From: Physcia stellaris
Taxonomy: Eukaryota; Ascomycota; Lecanoromycetes; Caliciales; Physciaceae
Direction of reading: 5' to 3'
DNA length: 64,000 bases
Assembly: GCA_018902385.1 (NCBI GenBank)
Contig: JABSSW010000029.1
Coordinates: 62,001 to 126,000, forward strand
The number at the start of each line of letters is the position of its first letter. Position 1 is the stretch's first letter. The notes under the pieces were generated by a model. It had not been told where the DNA came from. It did not search any database and saw nothing but the letters and a program-made list of their open reading frames with translations. Both the position numbers and the translations under genes were made by a program. This document shows positions 1 to 53,917 of this stretch, in pieces.

Positions 1-519
1 AAATTTATTATTATCGTTTTTACGAAAAATTGTCGAAATTGTCGATATCGACAAAATCGTAAAAAAAAATTATCATTGATATAATCACAAAATTTTCATT
101 TAATAAATGACGCAAAAAAATTTACGATTCGATTATAATAATAATAAATCGATATATCAAAATGACAATTTACGTTTCGATCAAATTTATTATAAAAACA
201 AACAAAATATGTAATTTGTTTTTCGACGACGTTTTTTTGAAATATAATTTATCGAAAAACATAATTTCAAATCGTGAATTTTTGTTCACAAACAATTTTT
301 GATTAACATTATGTTATTACGCGAAAATTAAACGCAAATTTAATATCGTTTTTTATTTACAAACAAATAATTAAACAAAAAAAACAAAATTAAAATTTGA
401 AATTATTTGTAAAATTTTTGCAATTACAAACAAAACAATTGAATTCGTTGTTGTTAAAAATTTTTATATACAATTGCGCGAAAAATATTTATTGAATTAA
501 TTTTATTTGAAATTTTGTA
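1..519 (+). mobile_element. 3' fragment of a decayed gypsy-type element (same family as the 23-30 kb copy)
   Basis: No coding frame is recognisable. Bases 8 to about 518 run collinear and near identical with 27003-27460 followed by 29797-29850, including the stretches around the TCGTTTTTACG, CGATTATAATAATAATAAATCG and CAATTGAATT(T)CGTTGTTG motifs. This is therefore the 3' non-coding end of another copy of the element at about 23-30 kb, cut at the left window edge and ending abruptly at 519, where a different repeat (TGACGAACG) begins. It also serves as the empty-site reference for the nested insertion at 27464-29796. C is followed only by A or G throughout. Confidence 0.75.
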
Positions 520-735
520 TGACGAACGTATATCGAATTCAACATTTAACAAAATTAATATCGAATTAACATCGTTATTTTATCACATCGAATGTTAAAA
601 TCGAAATTCGTTTTGACGCATTCAAAAAATCAAATTTTTTACATATGTTTTTACAAATTTTCATGTATTTGTTTTTCATTTCGATATTTTCGTGTAATTA
701 TGTAATAATATTATATTTTTGCATAACATTTCACA
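520..735. repeat. 216-bp direct repeat, copy 1 (candidate 5' LTR of gypsy copy 1)
   Basis: Starts TGACGAACG and ends TTTCACA, so it has the TG...CA ends of an LTR. A near-identical copy lies at 7891-8105 (215 bp) in the same orientation, just after an A/G-rich tract. The two bracket a gypsy gag-pol region, as LTRs should. No matching 5-bp target duplication is visible outside the pair (TTGTA on the left, AAAAT on the right), so recombination or a different origin is possible. Confidence 0.55.
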
Positions 736-3250
736 TTATATCGAAATTTTTTTTTCATGTTCGTTCATAATACGCGAACATTCAAATAAACAAAACTTTT
801 TACAATTAAATTCAATGAACGAATAAAAACATAATAAATTCAATTTGATTTTGATCATTCAACGAAAACAACGAAACATAATAAATTCGTTGTGAATTGA
901 AAAAAACGAAACATAATAAATTCGTTTGTTTTGTTTTAAAAAACGTTCAAAACAAACGAATTCACGCGATAATTTCGATTCACAATACAACAAACTTTTT
1001 TTTTTTTTTATCATTTTTGACGAAACATTCGTGTTTGAAAATCAAAAAATTATCAAAATTAGCAAAAAAAAACATCAACAAACAAACATTTTTATTCAAC
1101 ATTTATTTGTTTCATCATAAACAAACATTTAAAATTTCATTCAACATCACATCGAATTTGTCATTTTAAATAAAATTCAATATCAAAATTTATTTAAATC
1201 ATTGTTTTGTTTAAATTTTTTTTTTTCTGTTTCAACAATTATTCGATTTCAATTTACAATCATGATTTTTTCAAATTTTTTTTTCGAAATCAATTTGAAA
1301 AATCGATTATTGTTTAACGAAATCACACAATTGAACGTGTATATTTTTGATCGAATAATTACAAATTTCGAACAACATATCATTGACATTTTTTTTGTCA
1401 TAAATTTTAATCAAAATGATGATAAATTTGATGAAAATGAATCGTTCAAAATCGTTAATTCGATAAACATTTTTTCGAAACAACAATTTCAATCAATAAT
1501 CGTCAATTATCTCGACGAATTATGAATTATTTTCGAAATTTTTCGACGAAATCGAGATCGAAAAATGATCGTCATTCGAATTTGAAATTTTCAAATAAAA
1601 AACATGAAAATCAAAATTTCGAATCATAATAAAAAAAAATATGAAATCAACGAAATTTTGCGTGTCGTCAAAATCGAAATTTTTGTTGTTTAAATTCAAT
1701 GTAATGAATTTTTCAAAATTCAACGAATTCGTGAAAATAAAAATAAACAACGAAAAAAAACTGTTAAGTTATCAAAATCTGAAAAATTTTTCAATTTCGA
1801 GAAAAAATCTCGTTTTGAATTTAAAAAACGTTCGTTCAAACAATTTGATTTTTTTATTGAAAAATTTCGTTTTGATTTTAAGACGCGCTCGTTCAAACAT
1901 TTTGATTTTTTTATTTTTTTCGAACACAAGAATTTCAATACGTTCGAATACATTCGTTATGATATTTGAAAAAATAAATGCATTGATAAATTGAAAATCA
2001 ATTTCGATTGATACGTCGATAAATTCAAAAAAATTTTGCAATTATTAATTGAACAAAAAAAAAATTTGCGAAACATATCGATATTCGACGCGAAATTAAA
2101 CGCAATTTTTTCAAATCAATTGATAAAATTTTCAAGTTTTTGAACGACATTTATATCGATGTTGATTATTTTCGAAACGTTCGTCGTCAATACGATGATT
2201 TGAAAATGAAATTTATTGAATTTTTAACGAATTTTATTTCGAATTTTTTTTTTTAATCAATCAATTGTTCAAAAAAAAATGAAAGAACAAAATTCACGAT
2301 TTCGAAAAAAAAATCACAACGAAATTTCAACACGTCGACGTTGTTTTGAACGATTATAAAATTTTTGACGATTATTTTCGCAAATTTCAAATTATGAATA
2401 ACAAATATCGTCGTATCAAAAACAACGATGTTAAAATCAACATTTTTTTCATTAAAAACAAATCATCGATCAATCAATTAAATTTTCGAATTCGTCGCAA
2501 TAAACAATACATAAAAAATTTGAAAATTAAATATACGATTTTTTAAAAAAAAAACGTATAAAATTGTCATTGTTCGTTTTAATTTGTTTAAATTGAAAAA
2601 AAAATGTCGAAAATGTAATGAAAAAAATCATTGATAAAAAAAATGCATTTTTGACAAATTATTTGATAATTGAATCGACAATTTGATTAAACAAAAAATG
2701 TTCAATTTGCAAATCATTTTTTTGATTAACGATAATTTTTCAAACATCGACGACGATAATATAAATTTCGATATTTCAATTACATTCGACGTTAAATCGA
2801 AAAATTAACAATTTTTTTCGAAAACGCGAAAAAAATTATCAAAATTTGTTCACGAAATTTTCAACATAATATTTTTAACGAATTTCATTGTAAATTTTTA
2901 ATTAAAAAAATAAATTTGTTTTCGAACGATCGAAAAATCATGATTTATAATTTAATTGATATCGATGTTTTTGAATACGTTTTCATTAATAAAAAAATTG
3001 CGCAAAAAATATGTCATAAATTAAAATTAATTTCAATTTTTTTATCGCGATTCAAAAAAAATTTTAATTTCGAAAAAACGAAAATCAAATTTATTATTCA
3101 TCAAATATTGTTCAAAATGACGATACAAAATCATTCAAAATTTTTCGTTTCATTGTTCATTATCAAAATAAAACAGCATTCGTTGATTTTAAAAAAATTT
3201 TAAATAAACAAACATGAAATGATTTTCAATATAATCAACGACGAATATTA
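736..3250 (+). pseudogene. Decayed 5' internal/gag-like region of gypsy copy 1
   Basis: Low-complexity A+T-rich DNA with only short open pieces (for example 1202-1525, 1641-1994, 2346-2546, 2916-3203) that are rich in Asn, Lys, Phe and Ile because of mutation. Position and strand upstream of pol suggest gag, but I see no zinc knuckle or recognisable capsid, so this is placed by context only. The stretch 736-1200 holds nothing that can be named beyond A+T-rich DNA with repeated ACATAATAAATTC words. Confidence 0.4.
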
Positions 3251-3289
3251 TTTTATTTCGAATCATTGTGATTACGTTGAAGTTTTTTT

Positions 3290-6200
3290 TTGTTATCACG
3301 TTTGTTTATATTTCAAAAATTATTTAATTCGAACAAACATTCGAATAAAACGTTTTATTTGTCATTTTTTGAACGATTTTTAACGTCGTTTTCGTCGACA
3401 AAGATTCAAAAATATCAAATATTGCAAAAACGATCAATCTCGACATTTTTTCGAGTAATTTTTTTTCGTTTTATTGTGAAAAATTCGAAAAAAAACGAAC
3501 AATCAATAAAAAAAATTTTGAATTCAGATTTCAAATATGTCATTGAAAAAATAAACAAAAAATATTTATCGAATAAATCGTTCAAAAAAAAACGAAAAAC
3601 GAAAATCATACGTGAAATTCAAAAATCGAATTTAATTAACGTTTCGATAAAAAAATTTGACATTTTTAAGAAATTTGCACGACGATTTAATCGACGATTT
3701 AAAATCACGATTTCGAAAATTGAAAATAACGAACAAAATTTCGATTTTGATATATCATTGAACGTGACGTTCATCAACGCGACGATTTTTCAATTTTTAA
3801 CAAAATTTAAAAAAAAAAGTCAAGATTTTTTTATTGATTATGAAGAAATTAAACGAAATTATTGACAACGTCAAAAAAAAATTGATCAAAATAAAAATTG
3901 ATTTTGATTTGAATTTCAAAAAAAAATTTAAAATCATGAAAACAATCGTCGAAAAATTGAAACGCAAAATTTTTGAATTTTTCAAACGTTTCGAAAGTGT
4001 ATTCAATTCGAAAAAAACAAACAAATTATTTTTTCATAAATTTTACGATCACAAAATCGAATTGATCGAAAATTCGAATCAATTGTTTCGAAATCGAGTT
4101 TATTTTTTATCGTTCAAAAAATTCGAAATTTTTCAAAAATATTTACACGATAATTTTCAAAAAAAATTTATCAATTCAAACAAAACGTTTTATGTTTCGT
4201 TTATTTTATTCGTCGTCAAATCGAATGAACAATTTCGTTTGTGCGTGAATTATCGAAAATTGAACGTTATAATCAAACGCAATAATTATTTTATTTCGTT
4301 GATCGAAAAAATTTTCGTTAAAATTATCGATTGTAAATTTTTGTTCAAATTAAATATTATATCGATTTTCAATAAATTTCGAATGAATTTACAAAATGAA
4401 AATTTTATTATTTTCATATGTTCGCTAAACATTTACAAATATCATGTATTGTTTTTCGATTTTATCAATGATTCGATCAATTGACAACATTATATGAACG
4501 ATTTGTTGTTTGAATATATTAATGATTTTTGTTAAATATATTTGAATGATATTTTCATTTACAACAAAATTCGAAAACAGCATGAACGACATTTTATTCA
4601 AATTTTTCAAAAATTGAAAAAAATTGATTTTCAAATCGATATCAAAAAATGCGAATTTTTTCAAACAAAAATTTCATTTTTAAAAATTATATTATCGACA
4701 AAAAATTTACGCATGAATTTCAAAAAAATGCAAAACATCGTCAATTGAATTCGTTCAATATGCATCAAAAAAATGCAAACGTTTATGAATTTTTGCAATT
4801 TTTATCGACGTTTTATTAAAACGTTTTCGAAATTCGTCAAATTTTTAATTCGAATAATCAAAAAAAAATTGATTTCGAATGAATCGATTTCGTTAACGAA
4901 ACATTCGAAATTTTGAAAAAACAAATAATCGAAATTTCAATTTTTCGACATTACGATCGCAATCGTAAAATTATTTTGAAAATCGATTTTTCAAATTGAT
5001 ATTTAAATGAAATTTTATTTCAATACGACGACGACGAAATTTTTCATTCGATAATTTTTTTCAACAAAAAAATAATTTTTGTCGAATGCAATTACGAAAT
5101 ATATGACAAAAAATTTTTGATCATTATTCGATGTTTGAAACATTGAAAATTCGAATTCGAAAATATTGACGAATCAATCGAAATTTACATCGATCACAAA
5201 AGTTTGAAAATTTTTATGACAAACAAAAAATTCATTTTTCGTCAAATACGTTGAATCGAAATTTTAACGAATTACAATATCAAAATTCAATATCAATTCG
5301 AAATCAAAAACGTCAAAACGAATATTTTGATTAAAATGTTTGAATTTCGTTTCGTCGAAAACGACGAACGTGAATTTTATAAAAAACAAATTTTGTTGTC
5401 ATTTTTTCGATTGCAATTATGTTCGATTGACGTTCAAAACGATTTATACGAACACGTCATGCAAATCAATCGAAAAAATGAAAATTGTATTAATTATCGT
5501 CAAATTTTGATCGATAAGCAAATTATCAACGAAAAAATAAATTTGCAAAATTGTTTCGATCGAAACGAAATTCTTTTTAAAAACGAAAATTTATGAATGT
5601 CGAATCAATTAAATTTGATGATTGAAATAATTCGTGACGTTCACGATCAATTTTTTTGTGCACATTCGAACATGAATCGTATTGAAAAATTTATTAAACG
5701 TTATTATTATTGATTTAGTATGAAATTATTTATCAAACGTTATATTCGTAATTGTCACAAATGTCAACGATCGAAATTTTCACATGATAATCGTCACGAA
5801 TTGTTAATTTCATTGTCGATTTTTAATCAACGATGAATTGATATATCGATGAATTTCATAATTGAATTATTTGATTTCAAAAACAATAATGTTATTTGTA
5901 TTATTATCGATTGTTTAATCAAAAAACGTCATTACGTTTTTTGCGTGATTGATGACGATGATTTAACAATTCAAATTTGTATCAAAATATTGTTTTATTA
6001 TGTATTTCGTATTCATGAATTATTTTCATTCATTATTTCAAATCGAAATGATCAATTCGTAAATCGCGTTTGAAAAATTTTTTGTAAACGATTAAAAATC
6101 AAATGTAAATTGTTTATTGTTTTTCAATTTGAAATCGATGATCAAATCGAACGAACGAATCAAAATATCGAAATTCGATTGCGTTTGTATTGCAATTATC

Positions 6201-6946
6201 GTCAAAACGATTGAATTGATTGAATAAATATTATGAAATTCGTTGACAACAACGATATTTCAACAATCATCGAATTTATTTCATTTTTCATTAATAAAAA
6301 TTATCATTTTCGAATGATTTTTGAATCAAATTTAAATGATTACGAAATCATTAAAAAACGTTTGTTAATTAAACAAAACGAATTCATTGTCGAAAAAATG
6401 AATCGTATTATCGAATACGTCAAAATCAATGTTGTCGATACAAAACAAAAAATGATTGTTCGAATCAACAAATTTCGTTTTTCAATAAATTTTGAAATAA
6501 AAAATTACGTTTGATTAAATCGTCGTTATATTAAAACAATTCGTTCGTCAAACAAATTCGATGACAAAAAATTAAATTTTTATAAAATAATTAAAAAGCG
6601 AAAATTTGTTTACGAGTTGAAATTATTCAACGACATGCATATTTATTCAGTTTTTCATTTTTGATTGTTGAGAAAAAACTTTAAAAATTCGTTAAAAAAA
6701 CAGCATAATAATTTTTCGAAATCAGTGATTGCAAATGAAATGTTTGAATGAAAATTCGATAATATATTGCAATTTCGATATCATTATCATCGATTGCAAT
6801 ATCGTTGCAAATGATCGAATTGAAATTTTCATGATCGCATATGATATTACGTCGACGACGACGAATTTCAAAATGTTCAAAATATCGTTGATGTTTTTCA
6901 CGAGATTAATTCAGAACAAACAAAATTTGTTTTACGAAACGATTAA
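3290..6946 (+). pseudogene. Ty3/gypsy pol relic (RT, RNase H, integrase, chromodomain)
   Basis: The reverse transcriptase is recognisable at about 4040-4750: fragments such as LCVNYRKLN, then YLND at 4539-4550 in place of YLDD, and a DIKKCEFF-like palm/thumb segment. RNase H should lie at about 4800-5560. Integrase follows at about 5620-6500, with H..H and CHKCQRS zinc-binding residues (about 5640-5780), then the catalytic core, where the first Asp (DISMD) is now Asn, and a YCNYRQND segment. A chromodomain ends the frame (6731-6946). Most in-frame stops are TGA where a Trp is expected. Several frame steps exist. This is a non-functional copy; the order RT-RH-IN-chromodomain fixes it as Ty3/gypsy (chromovirus branch) and not copia. 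Confidence 0.85.
6731..6946 (+). pseudogene. Chromodomain relic with four Trp-to-TGA codons
   Basis: Reading from GCA at 6731, a chromodomain pattern appears: start of strand 1, then LQYRCK, then a stop, SN, a stop, NFHDRI, a stop, YYV and a VDVFHEIN helix. The TGA codons at 6749, 6812, 6821 and 6842 sit where chromodomains of this retroelement group carry Trp, including aromatic-cage and core positions. The frame stays open otherwise until TAA at 6944. Chromodomains of chromoviruses direct integration to H3K9-methylated chromatin; here the domain is dead. Confidence 0.75.
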
Positions 6947-7079
6947 ATTGTAAAATTTATGATCGATCAAAAAACGTCAACATGAATTCGTTACAATTCA
7001 TTGTCAAATTGAAACAGATAATTTTTGTTTCGATTTTTTGTTTTCATGTTATTTCGCGTTATTTACAATCAGAATTTAC

Positions 7080-7890
7080 GTCGTTTGAAAAGTTGAATCG
7101 TATCAAAAATATTTTCAGAAATTGTCGTCAAATTTTATTGAATAATAAGTAAAAATGTAAAATGTCATGCAATGAAATGAATAAACACAAATTGTCAAAA
7201 AAATTCGAACATTTACGAGTTCGTCAACAAGATTTTCAGTTGCTTACTAATGACACGCGAAATTATTTGTAAAATTCGTTCAAAATATTTGTTTTTCAAA
7301 AAATTTAATACATGCATATTTCGTTGAATGCAATGTACGAATCAAACGTTATATATACGATAACATCAACGCGTTAATCGTGATGATGAAAATTTTGTCG
7401 ATTTGTTCAAATTGTTCGTTTCGCGATATTAATTTGATGTTGCAAGAATTTTCAAAATTGTTGACGCGTTAAGTCAAATTCACAATTTTTTACTTATTAA
7501 TGTTCGTCGAAATTATTTTTTACGAAACGTATGAATTGATTATTTTTCAAAACATTCATTACATTCACATTTTATCGCATGCAATGTACACACAAACTTT
7601 CGCATACGCGAAAATATCAAGACGTCAAACATTGTTACGATGATTTTATTAACATGATCAAATTGTTCATTTCATCGTAAATCGATTTGATGTTTTCACG
7701 ATTTTTGACGAATCGATTTCGCGAACGAAATCGATTTCACAACATTTCGAATTTATTTTTTCATTTTATCAATCATTCAATTCAACGTCATTCAACGACG
7801 CATTCAGATCGCGCAAAACGCTCATCATTAAAAAAAAACGAATTCGATTGATCGTTTCGAAACGAAATTGAAAAAAGACGAGAAATAATG
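7080..7890 (+). repeat. 3' region of gypsy copy 1 with imperfect tandem duplication and purine tract
   Basis: 7080-7185 encodes in decayed form the same short region (KYFQKL-like) found at about 22086-22190 in the next gypsy element. It is followed by DNA absent from that element. About 7245-7485 and 7490-7725 are imperfect tandem copies of some 240 bp: both carry ACTAATG/ATTAATG, CGAAATTATTT, GCAATGTAC, ATCAAATTGTT-like words and GATTTGATGTT. The A/G-rich run at 7868-7890 directly before the TGACGAGCG repeat could be a polypurine tract. Confidence 0.5.
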
Positions 7891-8105
7891 TGACGAGCGT
7901 ACATCGAATTCAACATTTGACAAAATTAATATCGAATTAACATCGTTATTTTATCACATCGAATGTTAAAATCGAAATTCGATTTGACGCATTCAAGAAA
8001 TCAAATTTTCTACATATGTTTTTGCAAATTTCATGTATTTGCTTTTCATTTCGATATTTTCGTGTAATTATGTAGTTAGTTTATATTTTTGCATAACATT
8101 TCACA
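7891..8105. repeat. 215-bp direct repeat, copy 2 (candidate 3' LTR of gypsy copy 1)
   Basis: Pairs with 520-735. It starts TGACGAGCG and ends TTTCACA. Of eight transitions I found between the copies, five are at ApG/ApA or CpT/TpT sites. Immediately after it, sequence collinear with 22196-22683 starts, so the block 7.2-8.1 kb can alternatively be read as an insertion into an element related to the 16-23 kb copy. Confidence 0.55.
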
Positions 8106-8610
8106 AAAATTTCGAATTCGATATATTCAATGCGATCGTGATTACGACGTCTTTTGCGTTTAATCATTTCTTTCAATCAATTCATAATTTCGGCGTACGA
8201 AATAAAAGAATAAAAAAATAAAGAATGATTCAAATTCAAAATTCATTGTCATTTAGTTAGCTGTCAGTCATCAAATCGAAAATTGTGAATTGTACGAAAT
8301 CAAATTCTCGATTCTGAAAACAGCAAATAGTGAAATCGTCAAATCATGTTTTTTCTGAATCATCGAAAAAGATGTATTCAAATTTTTAACGCAAATTGAT
8401 TAAAAATCGAAATGAAATATATTCGATGCAAAGATTACGATTACAATGATTTTTCAAATCAACAAATTTTTGAATGCGAAAATCGCGATTACAACGATTT
8501 TTCAAGTCAAAAACATGAAACATATTTACACAAATCAGAAATTTCTGCTGCAAAGCATACGGAAAAATGTTGATCATTTCAAAAAATTTCGATGTTAAAA
8601 AGAAAACGCG
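8106..8610 (+). mobile_element. 3' untranslated part of a gypsy element, homologous to 22196-22683
   Basis: Collinear with 22196-22683: the words GATATATTCAATGCGATCG, TGTGAATTGTACGAAATCAAATT, AAATCATGTTTTTT and GATCATTTCAAAAAATTTCGATG occur in the same order in both. No intact reading frame. This copy keeps more CpT and ApG than the 22-kb copy (for example CTTTTGCG, TTAGCTGTCAGTC), so it is less mutated. It runs directly into an LTR at 8611. Confidence 0.7.
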
Positions 8611-8900
8611 TGTAAAAAATTCAAAATTCAAAATTTGCGAAACGAATTTCGTTTGCGAAATAAATTCGTCAAGAATTCAAATCAAGCAAATTCGAAACAT
8701 CAAATCGATTATATCATGAAATCAGCAATTTCGTCATATTAATAAAATCAACGCAACAACGATTATCGCATCGATATTTGCGCATATGCGACAATTGATG
8801 TGTACGTTGCATTTAACAGAACGTGTATATAATAAACTTTCTGAAAGATAATTAATTTTGCAATTATTAGTCTAGAAACTATTCTGTTTTCTGTTATACA
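8611..8900 (+). repeat. LTR of the 16-23 kb gypsy family (290 bp)
   Basis: Starts TGTAAAAAATTC and ends CTGTTATACA, matching the ends of 16026-16304. The 3' part (TTTTGCAATTATTAGT, then the TTATACA end) and the following TTTCTGATGTCA are shared with the 16-kb LTR, and the latter may be the primer-binding region. It has a 3'-internal sequence on its left and a 5'-internal-like sequence on its right, so it is shared by, or recombined between, two copies. Confidence 0.65.
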
Positions 8901-10100
8901 TTTCTGATGTCATATTTCTTGAATTTTACAAATGATTCAAAATATTATTCAAATTGCAACGTCATTTTAACAATTTTCATTTTGTCATTATTCACAAAAC
9001 ATTCAATGAAACGTTTTACGAATTTATTTTTTTGCAATTTTTGAACATGTTGCGTCAATTCGTTACATTTGATTTCATTGACGATTTGAAAAAAATTTTC
9101 GCAATTGACAATCGAAAATTTTTCGCAAAAATTTTTTCAATGCAATTATTCGTGTTCGTTTTGAAATGATTGACGTCATTGCATTTGTTCAAATGATCAA
9201 CAAATATTATTATGATTGCAAACATTAATTTTTGTTCATGAAAATTGACGATTACGCATTGATTAAATTGCATTATGATTACAACATATCGACAATTGAA
9301 ATTTTCGATAAAAAGTTGAATCAACAATATATCGATTTTTTCAAAATTTTTGAAAAAATTGATAATTTGACATATCGATTGAAATTTTCGAATCATTGAC
9401 GTATACATTTTGTTTTATTCATAATTCAATTGAAATTTGTTTTTTCATCAATGAACGATTTTTTCAATCGTTCGCGTTCAAATCAATCAAATTTTGTTTT
9501 CGTTGAAAAAAACACGAATCGAATCAAATCATGAAAAATTGAAAAATTTATTAACAAACGTCAAATCAAACGTCGTGACGACGAATATTTTGTCAAATGA
9601 AAAAATTGAAAATCACAATACGATGAATGACGAAATTTATCAAAATTCGATGACGTTCAAAATTTTGTACAAAATTACGAAAACGCGTTGCGTTTAACGA
9701 TGTTTTTGTCAAATCGTTTGCATAAATTTTTCATTTTATCGATCAAAATTATCATTTCGTTCAAATTTTTCGATTTTAAACAGTTTTTCGCAATCATTTC
9801 ATTGATTAAAAAATTTTTCACAATTATTTTTTCGACGTCGACGTTTGTCAATCAATTTTCAACAAATCAACGATTCGCGATCGTCATTTCACGTAAATCG
9901 AACACGACATTTTCGTTAATTTTTAAATTCGAAACATTTGTTTTGATTCGAAAATCAATCATCGTCGAATTGATCACATTTTTTATCATTTCGTTGATTT
10001 CAATCACGTCGTCGATTATCGCAATTGATATTTTGATGCGACGTTTTCATCGATTTCAAAAATTAAAAAAAAAATTAAAAATATCAACACGAATAATGTT
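8901..10100 (+). pseudogene. Gag-like remains after the LTR, truncated next to the NLR gene
   Basis: After the LTR come short plus-strand frames (8954-9169, 9494-9697, 9688-10125). The last is rich in Ser, Thr, Ile and Lys and ends in a basic KLKKKLK segment, in the style of a retroelement gag tail. No zinc knuckle or protease was found. The right end abuts the decayed 3' end of the minus-strand NLR gene, and the two may overlap around 10.1 kb. Function is assigned by position only. Confidence 0.4.
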
Positions 10101-41885: not shown

Positions 41886-42758
41886 TCAATTTTGAAAGCA
41901 TTTGACATGATTCAATCGATAAATCGATAAATGACAAAACATTTTTGACAATGTTTGCAAACAAAAAAAAACGCGAAAATGTCGAAAAAAATAAACGCAT
42001 CGAAACAAATCGAAAAGAAAAAAAATAAATGAAATCGATCGTGAAAAAATCGAAAATTGACGCGAAAAATTTTCGCGAATATGTGTTAACTCAAATGTTT
42101 CGAATTTAATCAATTTGAAAACAAATGTGATCATCGCATGAAAATATAACGTAATGTCGTTTTGTATAAAATCACATTTGTTTGCGAAATTGCATTTGTC
42201 AAAATCGCGCGAAAAAAATGAACGCATTTGATGTCGTTGCAAATCAAATAAATTCGATTTTTCAACGAACATGCGAAACAAATCGTTCACGATCAAATAA
42301 AATTTCGATAATATAAAAGTTCGAAACGAAATAAACGAACAAATAATATTTGCATTTTTAAAAAATTTGCACATCGATTTGAATGTCGCAATCGAAAAAC
42401 GAAAAAACTTCGATGCAATGACTGATCGTGAATCGATTTTTGTTCAAAATATCGATTTTTTTGATGTTGCAATCGACAAGAATTCTGAAAAAATTTCGAA
42501 AAAAAATGTGTTTTCTGAACGTTCGCGTACAGTTTCTGATGTAAAAATCGCGAAAAATAAAAATTTCGATGACGAAACAGATGAAAAAATGATCGATTGA
42601 AAAAACGTAAAAAATTTCGATTCGAAAACAAATGAAACAATTGATTTCGATTTTTTCGCATGTCGATTGCGAATATGTTCGTGAAATTTGATATTGTTGT
42701 CAAATTTGATCGTTTTGCAACGTTTACAAATATATTTTTCAATTCGTTTTTTGATCAA
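41886..42758 (-). pseudogene. C2H2 zinc-finger protein relic of the small element
   Basis: Frame 42758-42444 begins MIKKRIEKYICKRCKTIKF and continues to HEHIRNRHAKK, a C-x2-C-x12-H-x4-H finger, then a Ser/Phe-rich stretch. A second frame (42374-41886) follows in a shifted phase and ends in FFCLQTLSKMFCHLSIY-like text. Fingers of this form recur in repeat-encoded proteins of ascomycetes. I infer it is the only protein of this element; its role is unknown. Confidence 0.55.
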
Positions 42759-42976
42759 ACGAGTTTTTTTCTTTTATTTTGTCAATTGTTTCATTTTTTT
42801 CTTGAATTTGTTTTTAATTTTCGATTCGTGTTTTCGCATTAAGTAATATTTTTGCGCTTTTTTTGCTTGAACGAATCAAACGCATTTTTGACTAATTTGA
42901 TTCTGTTGATGTTGTAATTGATATTAAATGTAACGAAAATTGTTAATTCGATTTTCATAATCTTTTGAAAAAATCA

Positions 42977-43148
42977 TGAATAATTATCATTTTATTGTTT
43001 TGAATTTCGTTATTCTTGTAACATACATGCAGATAAAACACAAAAAATATACGAATATCAAGACGTTAAATTTCATTGATCGATTTATATCAATGAATTT
43101 TGATTGCAACATTTGCGAAATACATTTGCGATGATTGTATTTTCAACA
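42977..43148 (-). repeat. LTR-like repeat, right copy
   Basis: 172 bp partner of 40312-40483. The shared run extends a few bases further left (AAAAAATCATG) in both copies, so the true start is uncertain by about 10 bases. Confidence 0.6.
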
Positions 43149-44273
43149 TATTTTGAAAAAAAAACGAATTTTATCATTCGACAATTCAAAAATATATTTG
43201 AAATATATTCGAAATATATTATTCACATTGACGTGATTTTTGATTTTTTGATAAAAATTTTTGAACGATGCGTTTTGATTTTACGAACGTTATTTGTCGT
43301 TTTTGATCGATTTAACGATCGTATTTTTTGAATTGATTTTTTTTTGTCGTGAATTTTTTTGATAATTATCATACGAATGAAAAACGTTAATGTATTGTTA
43401 ATATATTAAATATAAATTCAAAATGAATTTTAAAATATTTTATCATTTGTTGCGTTGCGTTTTTTAATCAAAAAAATTTCACGACGTACAGTTTTTTTTT
43501 CAACGAAAATAATTCGATTTTTGAAATATTTTTGAATATAATTTTTCAAATTTTCAATATGATTAAAATTGTTTTATTTGACAATATATTATTAATTCAT
43601 TGATAATATATTGAGAAACAATTTCAAACATTTTAAAAATTATTTATCGAATTGTTGCAAAAATCGAAAAGTTCGAACAATTTGTCGATATTGACAATGC
43701 AAAACATTTGATTTGAATACAAAACGAAAATATCGTTATTTTAAAATATATTAACAATATATTCAAAAACAATTTCAAAAAAAAATTCGACAAATCATTG
43801 ATAAATGAATAATATATTGAAAATATATTATTAATGAATTCAAAAACAATTACGAAAATTTGAAAAAAAAATCAAAAAAAATACAATCGTCATACGATTT
43901 GTTAATAATATATTGAAAATATATTATCAACATATTTTCAGAAATTTCGTGCATGATCAAAACATATCAATAATGTATTTTGAATATATTATCAATACAT
44001 TGTGATAAAATGAAATAAAAAAAATTAAAAAAATTTACATCAAACTTTAAAAAAAATCAAACGAAACAACGTTTTTGTACTTTTCGTATTTAACGCGATT
44101 AAATTTATTAATAATGTATTCGCAATGAATTTTTCATCGAGAAAATAAAATATCGATGATTTATTTTTCTGTAAATGTCATCGTGAATATGTTTTGAAAA
44201 TGTATTCGAATAAAAGAAATCGAAAATCAAAAAAAAAAAAATCAATTGAAATTTAAAATTTTGCGTTAACGAT
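43149..44273. other. A+T block up to the island boundary
   Basis: Same character as 38.35-40.3 kb: dense AATATATT words (for example around 43560-43620, 43800-43830 and 43900-43990) and no gene. It ends sharply at about 44270, where CGCCGAATTGATCAGCCGATC begins normal composition. Confidence 0.5.
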
Positions 44274-44405
44274 TCGCCGAATTGATCAGCCGATCTTCAT
44301 TCACGATAAGTCGAGATAATGTTCTGAGGTCAGCTGACTTGTACTCTCTAATGTAATCGTCATTTTCACATCACATATAGCTGCATCATCTAGTCTAAGG
44401 ATCAG

Positions 44406-45221
44406 ATGGCCACTCCGATCGCCCTGACCACTTTCACCCCTCCGCCCAATTGTCTTTCCAATACGTACCGTTATGGCGACAACCAGCTCGTGGGCCCGAT
44501 GGCCTCGAGCTGCTACCCATCTGGCTGGACCAATACATCCACAACATACTATTCGCCCGCCGCCTGCCCTTCAGGCTACACCACTGCCTGCATTACAGCT
44601 AACACGGCGAACACCATCACAGAGACAGTCGCGACATGTTGTCCATCGCATTTCGCCTGTGCCTCGTCTGGCAATCTCGACGGCTGCGGCTCTAGCATCC
44701 CCGCCCAAACACCAGTCCGGATGACAGTCATGGACTCATCTTTTGTCTCAATCTCCACCATCGAAACGCAATACATTGGTGGTTATGTCAATGCATTTGG
44801 TGTGCAAATCCGCTTCCAGGCCACCGATCTGATCCGTCCGATATCAACCGTCTCAACCTCCACACCTTCCACCCAAGGTACATCTAGTTCCACCTTGGGC
44901 GGCCTTACATCACCCAGCTCAACACCTACGAATACTCCTTCTCCTGCTCTTTCTACCGGCGCTAAAGCTGGCATCGGTGTCGGCGCTGCGATTGGCGGTC
45001 TCCTCATCCTCGCCTTCCTCTTCATCGGTGGCCGGCATATTACGAAACGGCGGAAAGTGGTCGGAACACACAGTGGTAGAGGGGCGATGATGCCCGAGGA
45101 GACGGAACACAAGTCGTACCCTGTCTATGAGGTCCCTGAGGACGAGATCCGTCGTGAATTGCCGGAACATAAAGATGGGCGCCGGCATGAGCTCTACGAA
45201 GAGGGTCGAGGAATATCGTGA
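44406..45221 (+). CDS. Single-pass membrane protein with Cys-rich ectodomain (271 aa)
   Basis: A single-exon frame. Residues 1-135 form a domain with eight Cys (16, 36, 54, 62, 78, 79, 85, 94). Residues 145-186 are a Ser/Thr/Pro stalk likely to be O-glycosylated. One transmembrane helix lies at about 187-209 (GIGVGAAIGGLLILAFLF), followed by a basic stop-transfer HITKRRK and a charged tail with YPVYEVPEDEIRRELPEHK. This layout is common among Pezizomycotina wall-sensor-like membrane proteins, but I cannot assign a named family. There is no clear N-terminal signal peptide, so the helix may act as the anchor. The gene sits alone in a 1.2-kb island between two transposon blocks, yet shows normal codons and no stop. 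No function is claimed. Confidence 0.8.
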   Translation: MATPIALTTFTPPPNCLSNTYRYGDNQLVGPMASSCYPSGWTNTSTTYYSPAACPSGYTTACITANTANTITETVATCCPSHFACASSGNLDGCGSSIPAQTPVRMTVMDSSFVSISTIETQYIGGYVNAFGVQIRFQATDLIRPISTVSTSTPSTQGTSSSTLGGLTSPSSTPTNTPSPALSTGAKAGIGVGAAIGGLLILAFLFIGGRHITKRRKVVGTHSGRGAMMPEETEHKSYPVYEVPEDEIRRELPEHKDGRRHELYEEGRGIS

Positions 45222-45492
45222 TAATCTGAACCTGTTCAGTCTGTCAGTGTCGAGAACAGTAATTTCAACTTCAGTATCCCATGCCCTGGTAAGTGGTGGC
45301 ACCTCCTTCAGGACACACCATATGAGACCTTCGAATGTTGTGATGATTCTGCTTCCATAGTCGGGCAAGCGCATAACAGCTCGGAGATCCGTACTGTAGA
45401 CTGATGTTTTTAGAGAGGTCAGATTTACTCTTGGCTATCTCTTGAACAGATGTGACATGCCACAGCATGAAATACCAAATAAGCGAGCAATT

Positions 45493-45640
45493 CTGTAACA
45501 TTTCTGAATAGATAAATCATTGATTGCATGTTGTTCTATCATGTGCTAATTTACATGATTTTTTAACATCTAAAATCATTGCAATGCGCATTAATTACTA
45601 AATTTTTGACGATTTTTAATTAATCGTTTAATTTTACACA
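45493..45640. repeat. Mutated copy of a 148-bp flank duplicated at 53918-54065
   Basis: Runs from CTGTAACATTTCTGAATAG to about TTTAATTAATCG. Its first 70 bases still have CT and AG; from about 45565 on nearly every CpC, CpT, GpG and ApG of the partner is TpC, TpT, GpA or ApA here, while CpA and CpG stay. For example GGCGGCC in the partner is GACGATT here. It marks the left edge of the 45.5-53.9 kb transposon block. Confidence 0.85.
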
Positions 45641-46611
45641 TTTCTTTAAAAGAAATTATTTGATATTTCGTTTTATTTTTGATATTGCATTTATGAATAT
45701 GCGAATCGAACATTTGATCGAATTATGCATTGATGCAAAAATTTCGTTTTTAACGTTTTCGCAATTTTTGTAATTCATGCGTTTTGATTGATCGATTTTT
45801 TTCGATGAAAAATAAAAATGATACGAATTTGTATAAAATTTCGTTGACGAATATCAAGAATATACGAAAAAAAATGATGATTTTGATATTATTGCAAATT
45901 TAATAATTTCGATTTTTCAACAAACATGCAATGTAAATTATTCACAATTAAACAAAATTGTTTGATGAATTTTGATTGCATTTAAACAAATTTTTGAAAT
46001 GAAATAAATAAAATAAATGAAAAAATAAACGAAACGTTTTTCAACGTTTTTGATATAAATTTTGATAAAAATATCGAAAAACGTAAAAATTTTGATGAAA
46101 TTATTAATCGTGAATTTATTTTTGTTCAAAATATCGATTTTTTTGATATTATTGTTGATATAAATGTTTTATTTTTGTTAATAAATTTTATTTTTTCAAC
46201 GACAATGATTTTTTTTCGCACGATGATTGCGAAAATGTTTATTTTTTCAAATTTAAATTTATTATTTTCAAAAACGTAATGTGCATTTATTTTCGACACG
46301 AAAACAAAAAAAAATTATTGATTTTTTTTCGATATAAATGACGATATTTTGTATTGAAATGTACGTTTTTATTTTCAAAAATGTTGTTTGCGACGATATT
46401 GATCATAAAATCAAATACGTAATACACGTTCAATAATTTTATCGTGTTTTTTTTTTTTTGAAAATGTTGACGTTGAAACGTATTCGATCATATATTAAAA
46501 TAAAAAATGATTTTATTTTTGATATTATCATAAATTCGTTTGTACAATTTCGTTTTTTTTTAAAAAAACGTTATTTTATCGTTTTGTTAACGACGTAAAT
46601 ATCGAAATTAT
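45641..46611 (-). mobile_element. Third, partial copy of the zinc-finger repeat family
   Basis: 46080-46170 matches 42390-42480 and 28460-28550 (AAATTTTGATGAAATTATTAATCG, CAAAATATCGATTTTTTTGAT). 45850-46060 resembles 42180-42360. It is cut on the right by the copia element starting at 46612. No intact frame or zinc finger remains. Confidence 0.6.
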
Positions 46612-46804
46612 TGAACGAATGTGAATGATTGTCATTGCATTGCATGCAATATTATCGAAATTACGTACAGAAATAAGTACAATTTGATTGCGCAAATGTT
46701 TTTAATAATAATCGATTTTGACACGTTTCGTTTAATCGATCAATCAAAAATTTTGATTTTATTCGTGTGCATATTTCAGTTTTTTGTCATCGTATTTTTC
46801 AACA
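46612..46804 (-). repeat. 3' LTR of the copia element (left end)
   Basis: 193 bp, TGAACGAATGTGAATG to CGTATTTTTCAACA. Seven substitutions from the right copy; four are CpT/TpT or ApG/ApA. Confidence 0.8.
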
Positions 46805-47360
46805 TTTTCATTCGATGACAATCATGTTCATTGCATTCGTGAATGCGATTTTCATTGAATTTCAATTTTTGCATTGATTGAAATTTTCATTGAATGTTAA
46901 TTCGTGCAACGACGTAATTTTCATTGAATTTCAATTTTTACGTTTATTGATGAAAAAAACACTGAATTTTTTTGATCAAAAAATCGAATTCGAACGATTT
47001 CGAAAAAAATCATTTTGAATTATTATGCAATTCGAATTTGAACACGATCAACGAATTTTTGTTTTTAATCATAATTTGTCAAATTTGTACAATCGAATTA
47101 TTATCGTTTTAAAATGAAAAAAATGACGTGATTTCAATCAAATTCGAATTTTTTTAATTATTGACGAAAAAAACATTGATTTTTTTTTATCAAAGAATTA
47201 AATTCGAACGATTTTAAAAAAAATCATTTTGAATTATCATGCAATTCAAATTTGAACACGATTAACGAATTTTTATTTTCGATCATGATTCGTCAAATAT
47301 GTACGATTGAATCATCAGCATTTTAACATGAAAAAAACAATTTTGATTATTGAAAAAAAT

Positions 47361-48829
47361 TTAATTGATTTTCGATTTTTTCAGTTTCAATTGTTTCACG
47401 AATTTTTTGAATTTATTTTTTGACAATGATTTAATCAAATCATCGATTATCATATTTGTATTTGAAACGTAATTCAATTGAATCAAATTTTTCTGATGCA
47501 AATTTTTGATATTATGATAAATCACATCAATGTGTTTTGATCGTTCGTAAATATATGCGTTTTTGATTAACAAATTAACGATTTGATTATTTTTTAAAAA
47601 TTGCATTGATAAACAAATTTCATGTTTATCGTTTTGAATGATTGTTATTTGATTCAATTCGATTTCGAAATATTTGATGAAATTCAAATTTCGAAAAAAT
47701 TGTGTTATTTATAATTTTTTTTAACGCATGTCGATAAAATCATATATTCGATTTCAATGATTGAAATAGCGATCGATTTTTGTTTACGATTTATTTATGA
47801 TATTGATTTTTCAACGAACATGTAAACGTATTCGAAAATCGATTTTTTGTTCAATTTATCGATTGCGTAATCAAAATTCGAATAAATTTTGATTTTGAAA
47901 TTTTCATTGTTGTTCAATTTCAAATCGTATACAAAATTTAAATCGATGATCGATCGAATGTAACGAAACAAAATTTTCATTGTTTTGTCGTGATGTTTCG
48001 CAAAATCATTGAAATATTGATTTAATCGTTTTAATGCGAAAACGATATTTGAACGAATGTGTATGATAACATACATGAATTTTTCAATTTTGTGTTGATA
48101 ATTTTTTGAATCAATTCGTTCGTCGTTCGATTCAGTTGATTTGAATAAATCGTAATCGTTCATGAATAATTTCGTGCGTTCGTGTTTATCGATATTTATA
48201 TGCAATTCATTCAATATTTCGTTCAAATAATGAATTTGATTCAATCGAATAATTCGTTTTTTACGATCGCGAATGATTTTAATGTCAAGAATTTTTTTCA
48301 TTTTTTTCAGATTTTTGACTTTAAATATTTTTTTGAATTCATTTTTGAATCAATTGATTTGCTCGTTAAATTTGACGACAACAAAAATGTCATTCACGTA
48401 AAAAAATAATATGATTTTTCGTTTTTTATAACGAAACATACAAAAATCAATCGAAATTTGTTCGAAATTCAATTTGTGCAATTTTTTCACGCAACGTTCG
48501 TGTCAATTTTTAATTGTTTGTTTCAATTCATAAAAATTTCGACGAATTAAAAATGCTTGTTCGAAAAATAAATTCACATTGAATGACGATTTCATGTAAA
48601 TTATTTTTTTTAAAAATGATTTCGTGAAAACATTGTTAATATTTATTTGATGACATTCGAAATTTTTCAACGCGACGATGACAAAAAACAAACGAAAAAT
48701 ATCGAATTTGACAATTGAAACAAAAATATTTGTATAATTTATTTCATATATTTGCGAAAAAATTTTTGTAACGAATTTGATTTTCAATTTGTTCAACGTA
48801 TCATTCACATGCATTTTGATTTTGAACAT
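47361..48829 (-). pseudogene. Ty1/copia reverse transcriptase and RNase H relic
   Basis: 48829-48503 carries copia RT text (KFVTKIFSQIYEINYTN, KFDIFRLFFVIVALKNFECHQ, NNVFTKSFLKKIIYM, ELKQTIKN). The catalytic YVDD is YVND: AAT at 48394-48392. 48301-47795 continues with KYQHKIEKFMYVIIHIRSNIVFALKRLNQY and a KSIFEYVYM RNase H start. 47687-47361 has the C-terminal RSKHIDVIYHNIKNL and LIKSLSKNKFKKFVKQL, a very typical copia end. Stops and a frame step make it dead. Confidence 0.9.
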
Positions 48830-50905
48830 TCATTTATTAATAACGATATTGACGTTTTTCGATGAAATGACGACGTTTCAAATTTCATTAATTATTAACG
48901 TCGTCAATTCGATTTGAATAATTTCGAATCAAAATTTATTTCAAATGAAATCATTGACAGTTTTTGATAATTTTCGAACACAAATATGATTAATTTTTCA
49001 ACGAATTGTCGATTTTTTTTTGTTGTTGCAAATAAAATTCATTCATCGTGTTCGCATATATCAAAATTTTCGATTAAAAAAATCATCATGACGCGTGCAA
49101 TTTTGTTGCGATGTTCATTTTGTTTTTTTTCGTTCGTGATATTTCGTTTACGTTTAAAAATTGTTACGTGAAAAATGCTAATTTAACACGCGTTTGAATT
49201 GTCGATTTCGCGATAAATTCGTTGATTTCATTTTTTTCATTTGATATATCGATAAATTCATCGTTTTTTTTCATGTGCATTGATTGAATTTTTTTTTGTT
49301 TTTCGAAATCATAAACGCAATAAAAATCGAAAATTTCGCAAAAATTGATGCAACAAATGTTGATGCAAACGTCGATATCATCGAAACGATTGCAAATGCA
49401 AAAATTATTTTGCGTAATTTTTCGACAAATCGTTTTTCAAATAATTCGTTCATTGTAATCGTGAACAAATTCAACGATTTGTTTTTTCATTTTTCACGTT
49501 CAAAAAATATTATTTTGTGATGTTTGATGACATCACGACGATCGAAAATTCATATTTTGTATTGAATCGTGATGTTTTCGTCATAATTCATGAACACGTT
49601 TAATTTTTTTGTATTGACGAATTTATTTTTTTTATTTTTTTCAAACAATGATTTGATATTAACGAACGAATAACATTTGCATTTTCAAACGCGTATGTAA
49701 TTTATTGACGATTTAATATTTGTTCAAATTTCAATAAAATTTGTTGAATTGTTGTCAATTATTGATTTCGTATTTATACGATTGCGAACATATGCATTTG
49801 TTTTTTCTGTTTCAAATCAAAATTTTATAAACAATTTTGCATTTTGAATCATTGTTCGAATTTGATTTTCGATCGTTTTTATGACACGTTTTATTACGTC
49901 ATTTTGAATGAAATTATACGAAACGATATATTGTGAAACAATATCGATAAATTCGCATCAAAAATCGAATATAAATTTCAATTTTTTGACGTTGTCACAA
50001 CGTATTATTTGTAATTTTCGTTGAATTTTCAATTTGATTTTCAATTTTTATTTGTTGAAAAGTTTTGATATATCGATTCGTTTGCGAAAAAATAAAATTC
50101 ACGTTCGTCGAAAATGATTATTCACGATTTTTAAAAAATATTCGTAATCGAATTTTGAAACGAATAAAAATTCACAAATATCGATAAATATCAATTTCAA
50201 TATGTAAATTTTGCGTTCGATTAAACGACGATTATGTGCATTAATTATTTTCGTAATCGTACATATTTTGCATGAATCGTTGCGATTTTCAACAATGAAT
50301 ATTAATTTGCGTAAAGTTGTGATTTTGTGCAAATTTCGAAATTTTGCAAATTTTATATGATCAAAACGTCGATGTCATAACTCGTATAAATCACGTTTTT
50401 TTTGATCAATATTTGAATCAATATTTGAATCAATATTTGAATCAACATTTAAATCAATATTTGAATCAACATTTGAATCAATATTTGAATCAACATTCGA
50501 TAATTGAAAATCGATTTCGATATCATTTCGAAAATCAATATTTGTATTTGACAAAATTTCGTTCGAATTCACGATTGTTGACATTGCAAATGAAACAAAC
50601 AAAATTTTAAAAAATTCAATTACAAATATCGTGTTGTTCGTTAACAATGCGTATTTTTTAAATTTTGATGTGATTTTGTTTATTATGTAAACATTTTTTT
50701 GAACGAATATTCGAAATATTTCAACGTTTTGTTTATTGCACATGAACAAATTATCGTCATTGAAATTTTTTATCAAATTTTTTTTGATAAAATATTTGTC
50801 GAATAAAAAATTGACGTCGAAATCAAATACATAAAACATTTTCGTCAATATGTTTTTATCGTTTTTGACGCGTATCGTCATTAAATTACATTGATTTGAA
50901 TACAA
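48830..50905 (-). pseudogene. Ty1/copia GAG-pre-integrase and integrase relic
   Basis: 50905-50375 reads through the region before integrase (FYVFDFDVNFLFDKYFI, then YIINKI) and into an Asp-Ser-Asn repeat. 50332-50099 holds the integrase zinc-binding and start segment (HKITTLRKLIFIVENRNDSCKIC, ERKIYILKLIFIDICEFL), where the first catalytic Asp remains in IDIC. 48.8-50.1 kb is A+T-rich with broken frames that should contain the rest of integrase. Confidence 0.75.
50404..50498. repeat. Eight copies of a 12-bp unit (GAATCAATATTT)
   Basis: Units differ only by CAATATTT/CAACATTT and one AAATC. On the minus strand they encode a D-S-N-(I/V) tetrapeptide run within the copia polyprotein. It looks like an in-frame minisatellite in a linker. 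Confidence 0.85.
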
Positions 50906-51201
50906 TTTTTTTTTTTCGATTTTAATCGTGCGTTTTTTAATCGATTTGAAAAATTTATTAAAAAGTCGAAAATCGTCAATTATATGAAACGAAACGTCAA
51001 TGTTTGCAATTCAAACGAATTTGAAAAATTTATTGATCAATTTTTTGAATAAAACGACGATTTTTTTCATGTGTTTTTCATTGTTTGAATCGATGTCGAT
51101 GTCGAAATTTGAATTGTTATTGAACGAAAAAAATCGACGACGTTATACGTTTTGTATTTTTTATTTTTGCGTAAAAATTTTTTGATTTTTTGTTTTTTCG
51201 T

Positions 51202-51663
51202 TCATTTTTTTAATTTTTTCAAAAAATCATATTTTGCGATTCGATGTGAATCATCGCAAAAAAAACATTTAATTTTTTTCGTTTTAATTTTGAAACGACG
51301 AAAATTTTCGTCGAAATTGAAAAATCGTCGTTGAAATATGCGATAAAATTGACGACGATTATTTTTGATTATTAATGTCGATTTGACGATTTTGTTTGCA
51401 ATGAATTGTGTTTTTTTTTTTTGCAATTTTTAAATAAATTTATCGACATCGAAATTGTTTTGTGCGTCGATTGCATCACGAATAACATCGTATTCGACAA
51501 ACAAAAATGTTAAAAATGTTTGAAAATGACGTTTTGATTTGAACAAATTCGTTATGTTTGATTGCATGTTTGCAATTTTGCGATTTTTTTTGATAATATC
51601 GATATAAACAATTTCAATAATTACGTTTGAAAATTTTTTGTATTTTATAAATTTTTGCAACAA
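51202..51663 (-). pseudogene. Copia gag relic with degenerate zinc knuckle
   Basis: 51663-51430 is a helical gag piece. 51426-51202 includes KCFFCDDSHRIAKYDFLKKL, a knuckle whose last Cys is replaced by Tyr. The upstream gag part (51.7-52.25 kb) has only short frames. Confidence 0.6.
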
Positions 51664-52257
51664 TTGTCGTTCAATTGTAACAAATTTTTGTTTGTATTTG
51701 TTGACAAAAATTTTTCAAATTTTTTTGACAATTTTCAATTTCGTTATCAATTTTTGATTATCGTCATCGATATATTCGATGAATTGATATTGTGTTTTTG
51801 CGTCGAATTTTTTTTTAATTTTTTTTTTATCAAAATTCAAATCGATATTTCATTTTGATTTTCGAAAATTATTCGACAACAATTTCGACACATAATTTGA
51901 ATCGACGATTATTCAGATTTTTTCGTCGATAAATTATTGTTTCATTAATTTGAATCATTTTTCGCAATTTTAACGAATAAAAATATCGCAAATTCGACGC
52001 GCGTTGAATTTGTTGAATTCGAAATCGTTCATGATGCGTGATATGATATGTAAATATGTATTCGAATGTAAATTTTTTTTATTGTCGTGTGTTTTTTCGT
52101 GAAATTGTCGATCGAATCGTGTAAATTTTTTTTATTGTTTTAACGCGATCGAACGATAAATTTTTTTCACAATTGTTTGATTTTCGTGATTTCGTAATCG
52201 AACGATTGACGTTGACAATCACAAAAAATTTATGTTAATTCGAATTTCATAATTTAT

Positions 52258-52450
52258 TGAACGAATGTGAATGATTGTCATTGCATTGCATGCAATATTA
52301 TCGAAATTACGTACAGAAATAAATACAATTTGATTGCGCAAATGTTTTTAATAATAATCGATTTTGATACGTTTCGTTTAATCGATCAATCAAAAATTCT
52401 GATTCTATTCGTGTTTATATTTCAATTTTTTGTCATCGTATTTTTCAACA
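52258..52450 (-). repeat. 5' LTR of the copia element (right end)
   Basis: 193 bp. On the minus strand it begins TGTTGAAAAATACGATG. It keeps two CpT (ATTCTGATTCTATT) that are TpT in the left copy. Confidence 0.8.
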
Positions 52451-53917
52451 GAAATTATAATTCAAAATTTATCAAAATCGAAAAAAATAATTTGATTTCA
52501 TAATATCGACGTTGACGTGAATAACGACGAAAAATTTTACGATTTTTGTATTTTTGTTATCGTTTTTGTTTTCGTTTTTTTTGACGTTTTTCGTCAACAA
52601 CAAATGTTGAATTAAATATCGTTTTTTTTTTGAATTTTTTTCATGCGCATGTGTTGACGAAAAATTTCAATAAAAACGAAAAATTGTGTTTCGTAATTCG
52701 TTACGATTTTTAATTGAAATAAATATATTTTAACGAAAATAAATGCAATTTTGTTAATTACGTGTAAAAAATCACGATACGCATGTTTGTTATCGATAAT
52801 TTCAACAATTTTTGTTTGTTTAACGAAAATCAACATTTTTAAATATTCGTTTAATCAAATATCGATGTTTTAATGATTGAATAATTTTTTGATTATGCGA
52901 TTGTATTGTTGTTTCAATTTCAAATTTTTGATCGAATCGAAAAATGCAAAACGTATTTTGAAAATTCGTAAAACGTTTCATGAATGAATTTCAACGAATT
53001 GAATAAAATTGAAATTTGTAATCGTTATTGTATCATAAATGTGATCGATTATTTTTGTCATGAATTTTTTTGTTTTTTTCAGTTTTGAATTTTTTTTTGT
53101 ATTTCGAAAACGTTATTTTGTATCGAACATGTTTTTCGATAAAATTCGCATTCAAATGTGCGTCAAAATTAAATTTTAAAAATTCAAATTTGTTCGTCAA
53201 TTTAATATTTTTGAATAAATCGATAAAATTTCAAATCGAATATTCGATAATTTTAATTCGTACGATTGAAAATCACGTGTTTCAATTTTTGAAAAAATTC
53301 AATTTGAATTTTCGTTTCGTATTCGTTATCGTGTTGAACGAACGAATAAATAAAAAAAAATTTTGATTGTTATTGATTGTAAAAAAATATAAACACAAAT
53401 ATGTTTTCGTGATGTTTTGATTTTTCGTGTTAATTTGTCGAAATAATCGAATGTTGAAAATATTGATAATTAATTAAATTACGTATTGAATGCAACAATA
53501 AACGTGATTCGAATTTATAATTATAAAATTGTATCATTGCATCAAAAATAAAATCTCATTGTAATAAATAACGTATGATGATATATGAAAATAATTTCGA
53601 TTTGACATTTTTTTCAATTTAATTAAAGTTTCGATGAATTAAAATGTATCGAATATAACGTGATGAAATGTATTTGTAATAAAAATATTAATGAAACAAT
53701 TCAAATTTCAATGTAATACGTGATAATTTGTAAATGTCTTTTCGCTCGTATGTATTGTATCGTCATACGATGTCGCGTTTAATCAATCAAATCATTTGAT
53801 TAATATTGATATTCGTTTCGTTGTGTTATTTTGACTTTTTGCGACGCGTTTTGTAGAATTCGAATTTGCGACGTTCGTGTTTTGTGCGCTAACTTTAAGC
53901 GAAATTCGAGCTCATAA
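52451..53917 (-). mobile_element. Unassigned transposon relic right of the copia element
   Basis: A minus-strand frame at 52836-52612 reads KIVTNYETQFFVFIEIFRQHMRM, which resembles the D-x-G-T-x-F part of a retroelement integrase core; this is a weak call. 52.9-53.9 kb has no recognisable feature. CT and AG begin to reappear from about 53.83 kb, so the mutated zone fades towards the island. Confidence 0.35.

Follow-up and report, generated by a model that had tools for sequence, protein, structure and literature searches.

The AT-rich repeat blocks of the ascomycete Physcia stellaris (Lecanoromycetes, Physciaceae) have very probably undergone a repeat-associated hypermutation resembling repeat-induced point mutation (RIP), in which C was changed to T on both strands in the order CpC > CpT >> CpA > CpG, i.e., with CpY (C before a pyrimidine) as the target. 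At the level of sequence, both the C-to-T hypermutation and the near inversion of its context are established. They were studied in a window of 64,000 nucleotides (contig JABSSW010000029.1, positions 62,001 to 126,000; G000:C29:62001-126000) and in the assembly to which it belongs (44.0 Mb, 147 contigs), which is slightly smaller than the published genome (46.57 Mb, 43.3% GC, from an ascospore-derived culture sequenced with Nanopore and Illumina, PMC7513301; the Nanopore and Illumina origin is also given in PMC7765829). In the excerpts of the genome paper (PMC7513301), no RIP analysis of P. stellaris was found.

The counts given by the initial annotation for positions 3001–3600 were exactly reproduced: 71 C (39 before A, 30 before G, one before T, none before C) and 55 G (five after A, none after G). 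Over four AT-rich blocks that we chose for counting (1–11000, 16001–27000, 30001–43900 and 46100–53000; 42,801 bases, both strands), C stands before A, C, G and T 5071, 3, 4986 and 332 times, and the corresponding counts in islands (15.4 kb) are 2096, 1629, 1671 and 1966, i.e., normal. Expressed as C/(C+T), CpC in the blocks is at most.001 and CpT about.02, and after A, G or T the values are.44–.55 for CpA and.48–.54 for CpG (after C there are almost none of either, the leading C of a CC pair being a target too). The 5' neighbour of C had no effect, both in the block counts and in five aligned copy pairs (see below), and TpCpA (2687) and TpCpG (2740) are abundant. CpA and CpG are thus common in the blocks, as had been claimed, but CpA is not untouched and forms a slow third target.

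The same composition recurs elsewhere in the genome. We sampled 20 further stretches, cut into 192 segments of 1 kb (three of the stretches carry methyltransferase genes and five adjoin the window). The C/(C+T) values for CpA, CpC, CpG and CpT were.449,.006,.490 and.036 in the 41 AT-rich segments (GC below 33%) and.605,.448,.436 and.500 in the 145 GC-normal ones, with six segments intermediate; among the 12 stretches picked blind, 14 of 120 segments were of the AT type. The loss of CpC and CpT is confirmed, and in the sampled stretches it recurs beyond the 42.8 kb of the window's blocks. The pattern had been assigned to positions 1–53,900 as a whole, and this stands for the AT-rich blocks; the range also takes in two unaffected islands (about 11,700–15,300 and 44,300–45,500) as well as stretches of partial mutation (about 10,800–11,500 and 27,500–29,800). 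Its fading at the islands is seen directly: the transition takes a few hundred bases at the island edges, but about 1 kb on the left side of the first island.

The direction of change was read from aligned copies of a dispersed repeat of about 3 kb, flanked by long terminal repeats (LTRs) and carrying a C2H2-like open reading frame (ORF), which has 144 matches in the genome. Twenty unmutated copies, the loci returned among these matches, were compared with 17 mutated copies (15 long, mid-scoring matches of our choice and two further ones) at sites with C and the same 3' base in no fewer than 85% of the unmutated copies. In the mutated copies, which are interrelated, C-to-T changes were found at 984 of 1029 CpC, 576 of 759 CpT, 69 of 1011 CpA and 43 of 1140 CpG sites, as against 24 A-to-G changes at 3241 sites; the corresponding hazards are 3.13, 1.42, 0.071 and 0.038, so that CpC is hit about 44 times as hard as CpA. 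At CpC sites the share of C-to-T was.956, and that of C to A or G together about.01. Pairing GC-normal with AT-rich copies (five pairs, overlapping in some copies with the larger comparison) gave 328/382 for CpC, 231/366 for CpT, 31/396 for CpA and 37/341 for CpG, with A-to-G at 45/1451. For this repeat type and its relatives, the changes are therefore not mostly at CpA, and the ancestral elements did not lack CpC and CpT, since the 20 unmutated copies have a GC content of.50–.57 and the less mutated partners of the pairs held 396 CpA, 382 CpC, 341 CpG and 366 CpT sites. The unusual 3' nearest-neighbour preference proposed at the outset is borne out by these alignments, in which both strands are mutated and the changes interspersed.

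The least changed copy (L054) had lost 43 of 54 CpC and 15 of 40 CpT but none of 50 CpA and 58 CpG, which indicates that CpC changes first. Between the paired LTRs of 18 elements, C/T differences stood before C in 51 cases, before T in 70, before A in 9 and before G in 3 (in a further 31, the next base was itself C/T-variable). When six pairs of mutated copies were compared with each other, the sites differing and agreeing numbered 259 and 820 for CpA, 66 and 1108 for CpG, and 43 and 12 for CpT; the excess of differences at CpA points to a slow second phase. The alignment of window positions 22958–26720 with locus L008 shows a CpY-free family with many copies at 90–95% identity; these copies differ mainly at CpA, which suggests a second, slower process there.

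Direct terminal repeats were present in 18 of the 20 unmutated copies (73–100% identical), and the nearest sampled relative of such a copy was 85–91% identical over the ORF, whereas the saturated stretch 23501–24500 has 18 further copies at 90–95% over at least 650 bases. Many of these unmutated insertions sit inside mutated blocks with sharp edges: CpY was kept at 7 of 263 sites in the 50 bases outside and at 136 of 245 in the first 50 bases inside (left flanks of 10 of the 20 elements, selected for a distinct LTR start; the flanks of L033, L034, L036 and L039 are not fully saturated). The state of the unmutated copies would fit either a requirement for near-identical copies or insertion after the last episode of the process, and it shows that some repeats are spared. 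The LTR-flanked element, in other words, either escapes mutation or is young.

The features of the window are as follows.

1–11400: AT-rich block (by composition), CpC almost absent and CpT rare, right edge partly mutated.
3290–3865, forward strand: open frame in saturated DNA (ORF translation), without Pro, Gly and Trp.
3834–4484, forward strand: piece of a mutated Ty3/gypsy reverse transcriptase, residues 73–212 matching Ty3 reverse transcriptase 4ol8 (E 1e-6), without Pro, Gly and Trp.
10448–10999, reverse strand: DUF7779 open frame (PF25000, E 8e-10), extending into the partly mutated zone, without Pro, Gly and Trp.
11700–15300: gene island with normal CpN (C before any base; by composition), used as control.
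15500–27400: saturated AT-rich block (by composition).
27513–28576, reverse strand: mutated copy of a zinc-finger-type repeat (aligned pair, partner L009 6381–7436).
29417–29800, reverse strand: copy of a repeat stretch, mutated in part (aligned pair, partner L009 5121–5513).
29800–44200: saturated AT-rich block (by composition).
40656–41223: mutated repeat piece (aligned pair, partner L021 6187–6714).
42045–42815, reverse strand: ORF of the LTR-flanked repeat in a mutated copy (R_window; by alignment).
44300–45500: gene island with normal CpN (by composition), used as control.
45600–53800: saturated AT-rich block (by composition).
54000–64000: gene-rich DNA with normal CpN (by composition).

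The window's own copy of the repeat, R_window, is changed at 56 of 59 CpC, 38 of 41 CpT, 10 of 57 CpA and 3 of 66 CpG sites. In the related copies, zf-C2H2_4 fell below the cut-off at L009 and no Pfam match was obtained at L021. Both gypsy and copia elements are present, as the initial annotation had held, the former by the Ty3 match listed above and the latter by the stretch 47750–51430, which is 92.7% identical to L021 451–4215, where the copy has a copia RVT_2 domain (E 2e-10). Pfam named no transposon domain in six mutated frames of the window; at E up to 10, two out of four additional frames at other loci gave matches, to RVT_2 and RVT_1. In viral_contigs no relative of the mutated gypsy or copia pieces could be confirmed, and no RNA family reached the gathering threshold within the 64-kb window. 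The DUF7779 frame suggests that gene-type sequence outside named transposons may also be hit.

Among the codons of the mutated copies, TGG had turned into TGA in 16 of 17 cases (TAA in one), CAA was kept in 25 of 26, CAC in 17 of 17 and CGA in 8 of 8, Pro codons mostly came to specify Ser or Phe, and those for Gly mainly Asp or Glu; CpY change creates stops only via TGG to TGA. In a simulation with the 20 unmutated ORFs, full CpA conversion gave 3.81 stops per 100 codons and changed.27 of the residues, as compared with 0.46 and.44 for full CpY conversion; for two host genes, CpA gave 6.53 and 5.77 stops per 100 codons vs 2.24 and 1.10 for CpY. Genome-search listings held 395 TGA, 87 TAA and 16 TAG (97 matches) and 82, 24 and 10 (144 matches), counts that include unmutated copies, nearly all of which in the set of 97 also have one to three TGA, so that one TGA or more in each copy may have an origin other than mutation. 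In the window, Pro, Gly and Trp are missing from seven mutated frames. The repeat ORF has 76 homologues, of which 15, each on an ENA contig, likewise have no Pro and no Gly over 386–569 residues, but 1.2–2.1% Trp; for the one that was checked (P0261), identity to the listed P. stellaris matches does not exceed 74%, and this protein probably comes from another genome. These metagenome relatives speak for a wider distribution and against the idea that the signature arose in assembling the P. stellaris genome. In all 15 (P0261, P0264, P0266 and 12 others) the gene caller likely read TGA as Trp. Such database entries are apparently false proteins from mutated repeats that mimic another genetic code.

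Among the methyltransferases that the initial annotation had proposed to search for, the genome has one DIM-2-like gene (contig C3; a frame of 1118 amino acids without stops) and two RID-type genes, RID-L (contig C5; 100% identical over the searched part to P. stellaris G7Y79_00005g016670) and RID-S (contig C6). RID-S belongs to the RID/Masc1 family by its C5-methyltransferase domain (PF00145 over the cut-off, in the gene and in its Heterodermia homologue), its PPCQ motif, its grouping in the tree and the fold of the Heterodermia homologue. It is a short paralogue that forms a deep clade of its own (tree of 70 sequences: P. stellaris RID-S and 69 proteins chosen out of 231) and has a remodelled catalytic loop. 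Five short RID-type proteins of other lichens (P0062, P0066, P0206, P0183 and P0189) showed no match to the PPC pattern, which may reflect an altered motif or faulty gene models.

The explanation that we prefer is that an enzyme of the C5-cytosine-methyltransferase family would deaminate (or methylate and then deaminate) C in CpY within recently duplicated, near-identical DNA, acting round after round until hardly any CpY is left, with a slow decay of CpA to follow. Taken as a whole, process and enzyme route together, this account is probable. The enzyme itself is named tentatively: RID-S is the most likely one, its clade and its motif being the basis, and RID-L and DIM-2 are the alternatives. 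It is possible, if somewhat doubtful, that RID-S is a neofunctionalised, CpY-specific RIP enzyme of the Physciaceae (Physcia, Heterodermia) and metagenome relatives, beside a CpA-type RID-L.

Several observations weigh against the account. Because the 17 mutated copies are interrelated, their counts are not numbers of independent events. At least 20 dispersed copies of the LTR-flanked repeat (L025–L044), with a mutual identity of 77–91% over the ORF, have stayed unmutated despite the ascospore origin of the culture (PMC7513301), which means that some repeats do not trigger the process, or that a higher identity is required. That it is directed at repeats we infer from two DNA queries, i.e., a mutated stretch (23501–24500) with 19 genome matches including itself (90–100% identity over at least 650 bases; 18 further copies at 90–95%) and one in the gene-rich part (60501–61500) that is single-copy except for two short matches, together with the contrast between blocks and islands. 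Finally, the in-frame stops of the 17 mutated copies comprise 19 TGA, 5 TAA and 1 TAG, and the TAA and TAG stops are not explained by CpY change alone.

Mutation directed at heterochromatin with a CpY preference, by DIM-2 instead of RID, is the strongest competitor, although we regard it as rather unlikely. The stop-free DIM-2-like frame would allow it, N. crassa DIM-2 methylates with a CpT preference according to a review (PMC13297926), and Dim2 of Zymoseptoria promotes mitotic C-to-T change in repeats (PMC8016269); the latter enzyme, however, methylates in the order CG > CA > CC with hardly any CT and its mutations fall at CA (PMC8016269), and the sharp edges of the unmutated insertions (7/263 vs 136/245 in 10 of 20 elements) are unlike a mark that spreads through heterochromatin. 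CpY methylation followed by spontaneous deamination of 5-methylcytosine over time, without active mutation (as in methylation induced premeiotically, MIP), would also yield C-to-T on both strands and would explain the gradation between copies. Slow decay lets the background catch up, yet CpC sites show.956 C-to-T against about.01 C to A or G, and L054 has 43/54 CpC changed beside 0/50 CpA and 0/58 CpG, which makes such decay unlikely.

An APOBEC-like DNA deaminase or ultraviolet (dipyrimidine) damage is very improbable. Eight dCMP_cyt_deam_1 matches would speak for a deaminase; APOBEC enzymes read the 5' base, whereas no 5' dependence was found here; dipyrimidine damage would deplete TpC too, yet TpCpA and TpCpG are plentiful in the blocks. 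A search with APOBEC_N gave no match, but its control likewise matched nowhere, so that this negative carries no information. A PF00383 match with four TGA (C64) was considered as a mutated gene and rejected, as its DNA has normal CpC and CpT; it is probably a gene with introns. An artefact of base-calling methylated DNA, which the Nanopore share of the assembly (PMC7513301, PMC7765829) might invite, is hardly credible: the loss of CpC is nearly complete rather than partial, the same element is read normally in its unmutated copies, and 15 of 76 homologues, all from ENA, have 0 Pro and 0 Gly, among them P0261. That the elements were always poor in CpY is the least plausible of all; a CpY-free, AT-rich family with many copies at 90–95% identity could give that impression, but the 20 unmutated copies and the LTR pairs show change in place, and for one repeat type the idea is contradicted.

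With the RID-dependent, CpA-preferring RIP of Neurospora crassa the process in P. stellaris shares C-to-T change on both strands, AT-rich repeat blocks, the sparing of genes and the presence of RID and DIM-2 homologues (here two RID/Masc1-type genes). Its order is a near inversion of that quoted for N. crassa, CpA > CpT > CpG > CpC (PMC5496416), with 69/1011 CpA changed vs 984/1029 CpC. It works like RIP, but that it is RIP proper is not established, since the characteristic CpA preference fails. The context of RIP can vary between species, as in Trichoderma reesei (CpA about equal to CpG, then CpT > CpC; PMC5496416), but there CpC comes last and here first. CpG is not the main target (43/1140), in contrast to MIP-like methylation decay of the CpG type, nor is there a 5' dependence of the APOBEC type. 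The RIP-like hypermutation of Basidiomycota at CpG/TpCpG (PMC4014442) is also repeat-associated C-to-T change outside CpA; in P. stellaris, however, CpG is hit least and a 5' preference is absent.

In itself, a CpT signal has precedents. The excerpts of Amselem 2015 (PMC4352252) give CpA, CpT and CpG signatures, in a table that pairs CpT with CpA, has no entry for CpC, and lists species in which a Masc1/RID gene is present; CpA and CpT are jointly dominant in Anisogramma (PMC10998396), van Wyk 2021 reports CpT-to-TpT as dominant by alignment in RIP-capable fungi (PMC7882544), and N. crassa and Stagonospora, too, have been described with CpT signals (PMC2621366, PMC5555474). P. stellaris shares CpT as a target with the CpT-signature fungi (Botrytis, Sclerotinia and Magnaporthe of Amselem 2015, and Anisogramma), but there it stands with CpA, whereas here CpC comes first and CpA is nearly spared; it is this combination, as a variant of RIP, that appears to be new. 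No report of CpC-first or CpY-only RIP was found in the open-licence PMC papers searched. A kingdom-wide survey describes CpA preference as common to RIP-like defences (PMC12543289), CpA-based screening detected RIP in two other Lecanoromycetes (PMC7882544), and strong RIP is reported in the lichen fungus Cladonia rangiformis, in excerpts that give no dinucleotide context (PMC12542154).

A near-inverted preference beside a divergent RID paralogue offers a natural contrast for finding the basis of RID target choice, and the same contrast bears on whether RID itself does the chemistry. A two-enzyme RIP (RID-S and RID-L), if true, would rewrite proteins with few stops, erasing Pro and Gly and changing 44% of residues (on full CpY conversion in simulation). 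As CpY change makes few stops, long frames free of Pro and Gly enter protein databases, apparently with TGA read as Trp. The usual RIP indices assume CpA, and RIP may therefore be missed in other genomes. We applied them to 256 segments, of which nine with 33–40% GC were left out (two threshold sets, one of them that of RIPCAL), and with the RIPCAL thresholds they called none of the 88 heavily mutated AT-rich segments (median TpA/ApT.46, substrate index 1.38). A CpY index separated these 88 segments (0–.184) from the 159 GC-normal ones (.577–1.387) with no overlap.

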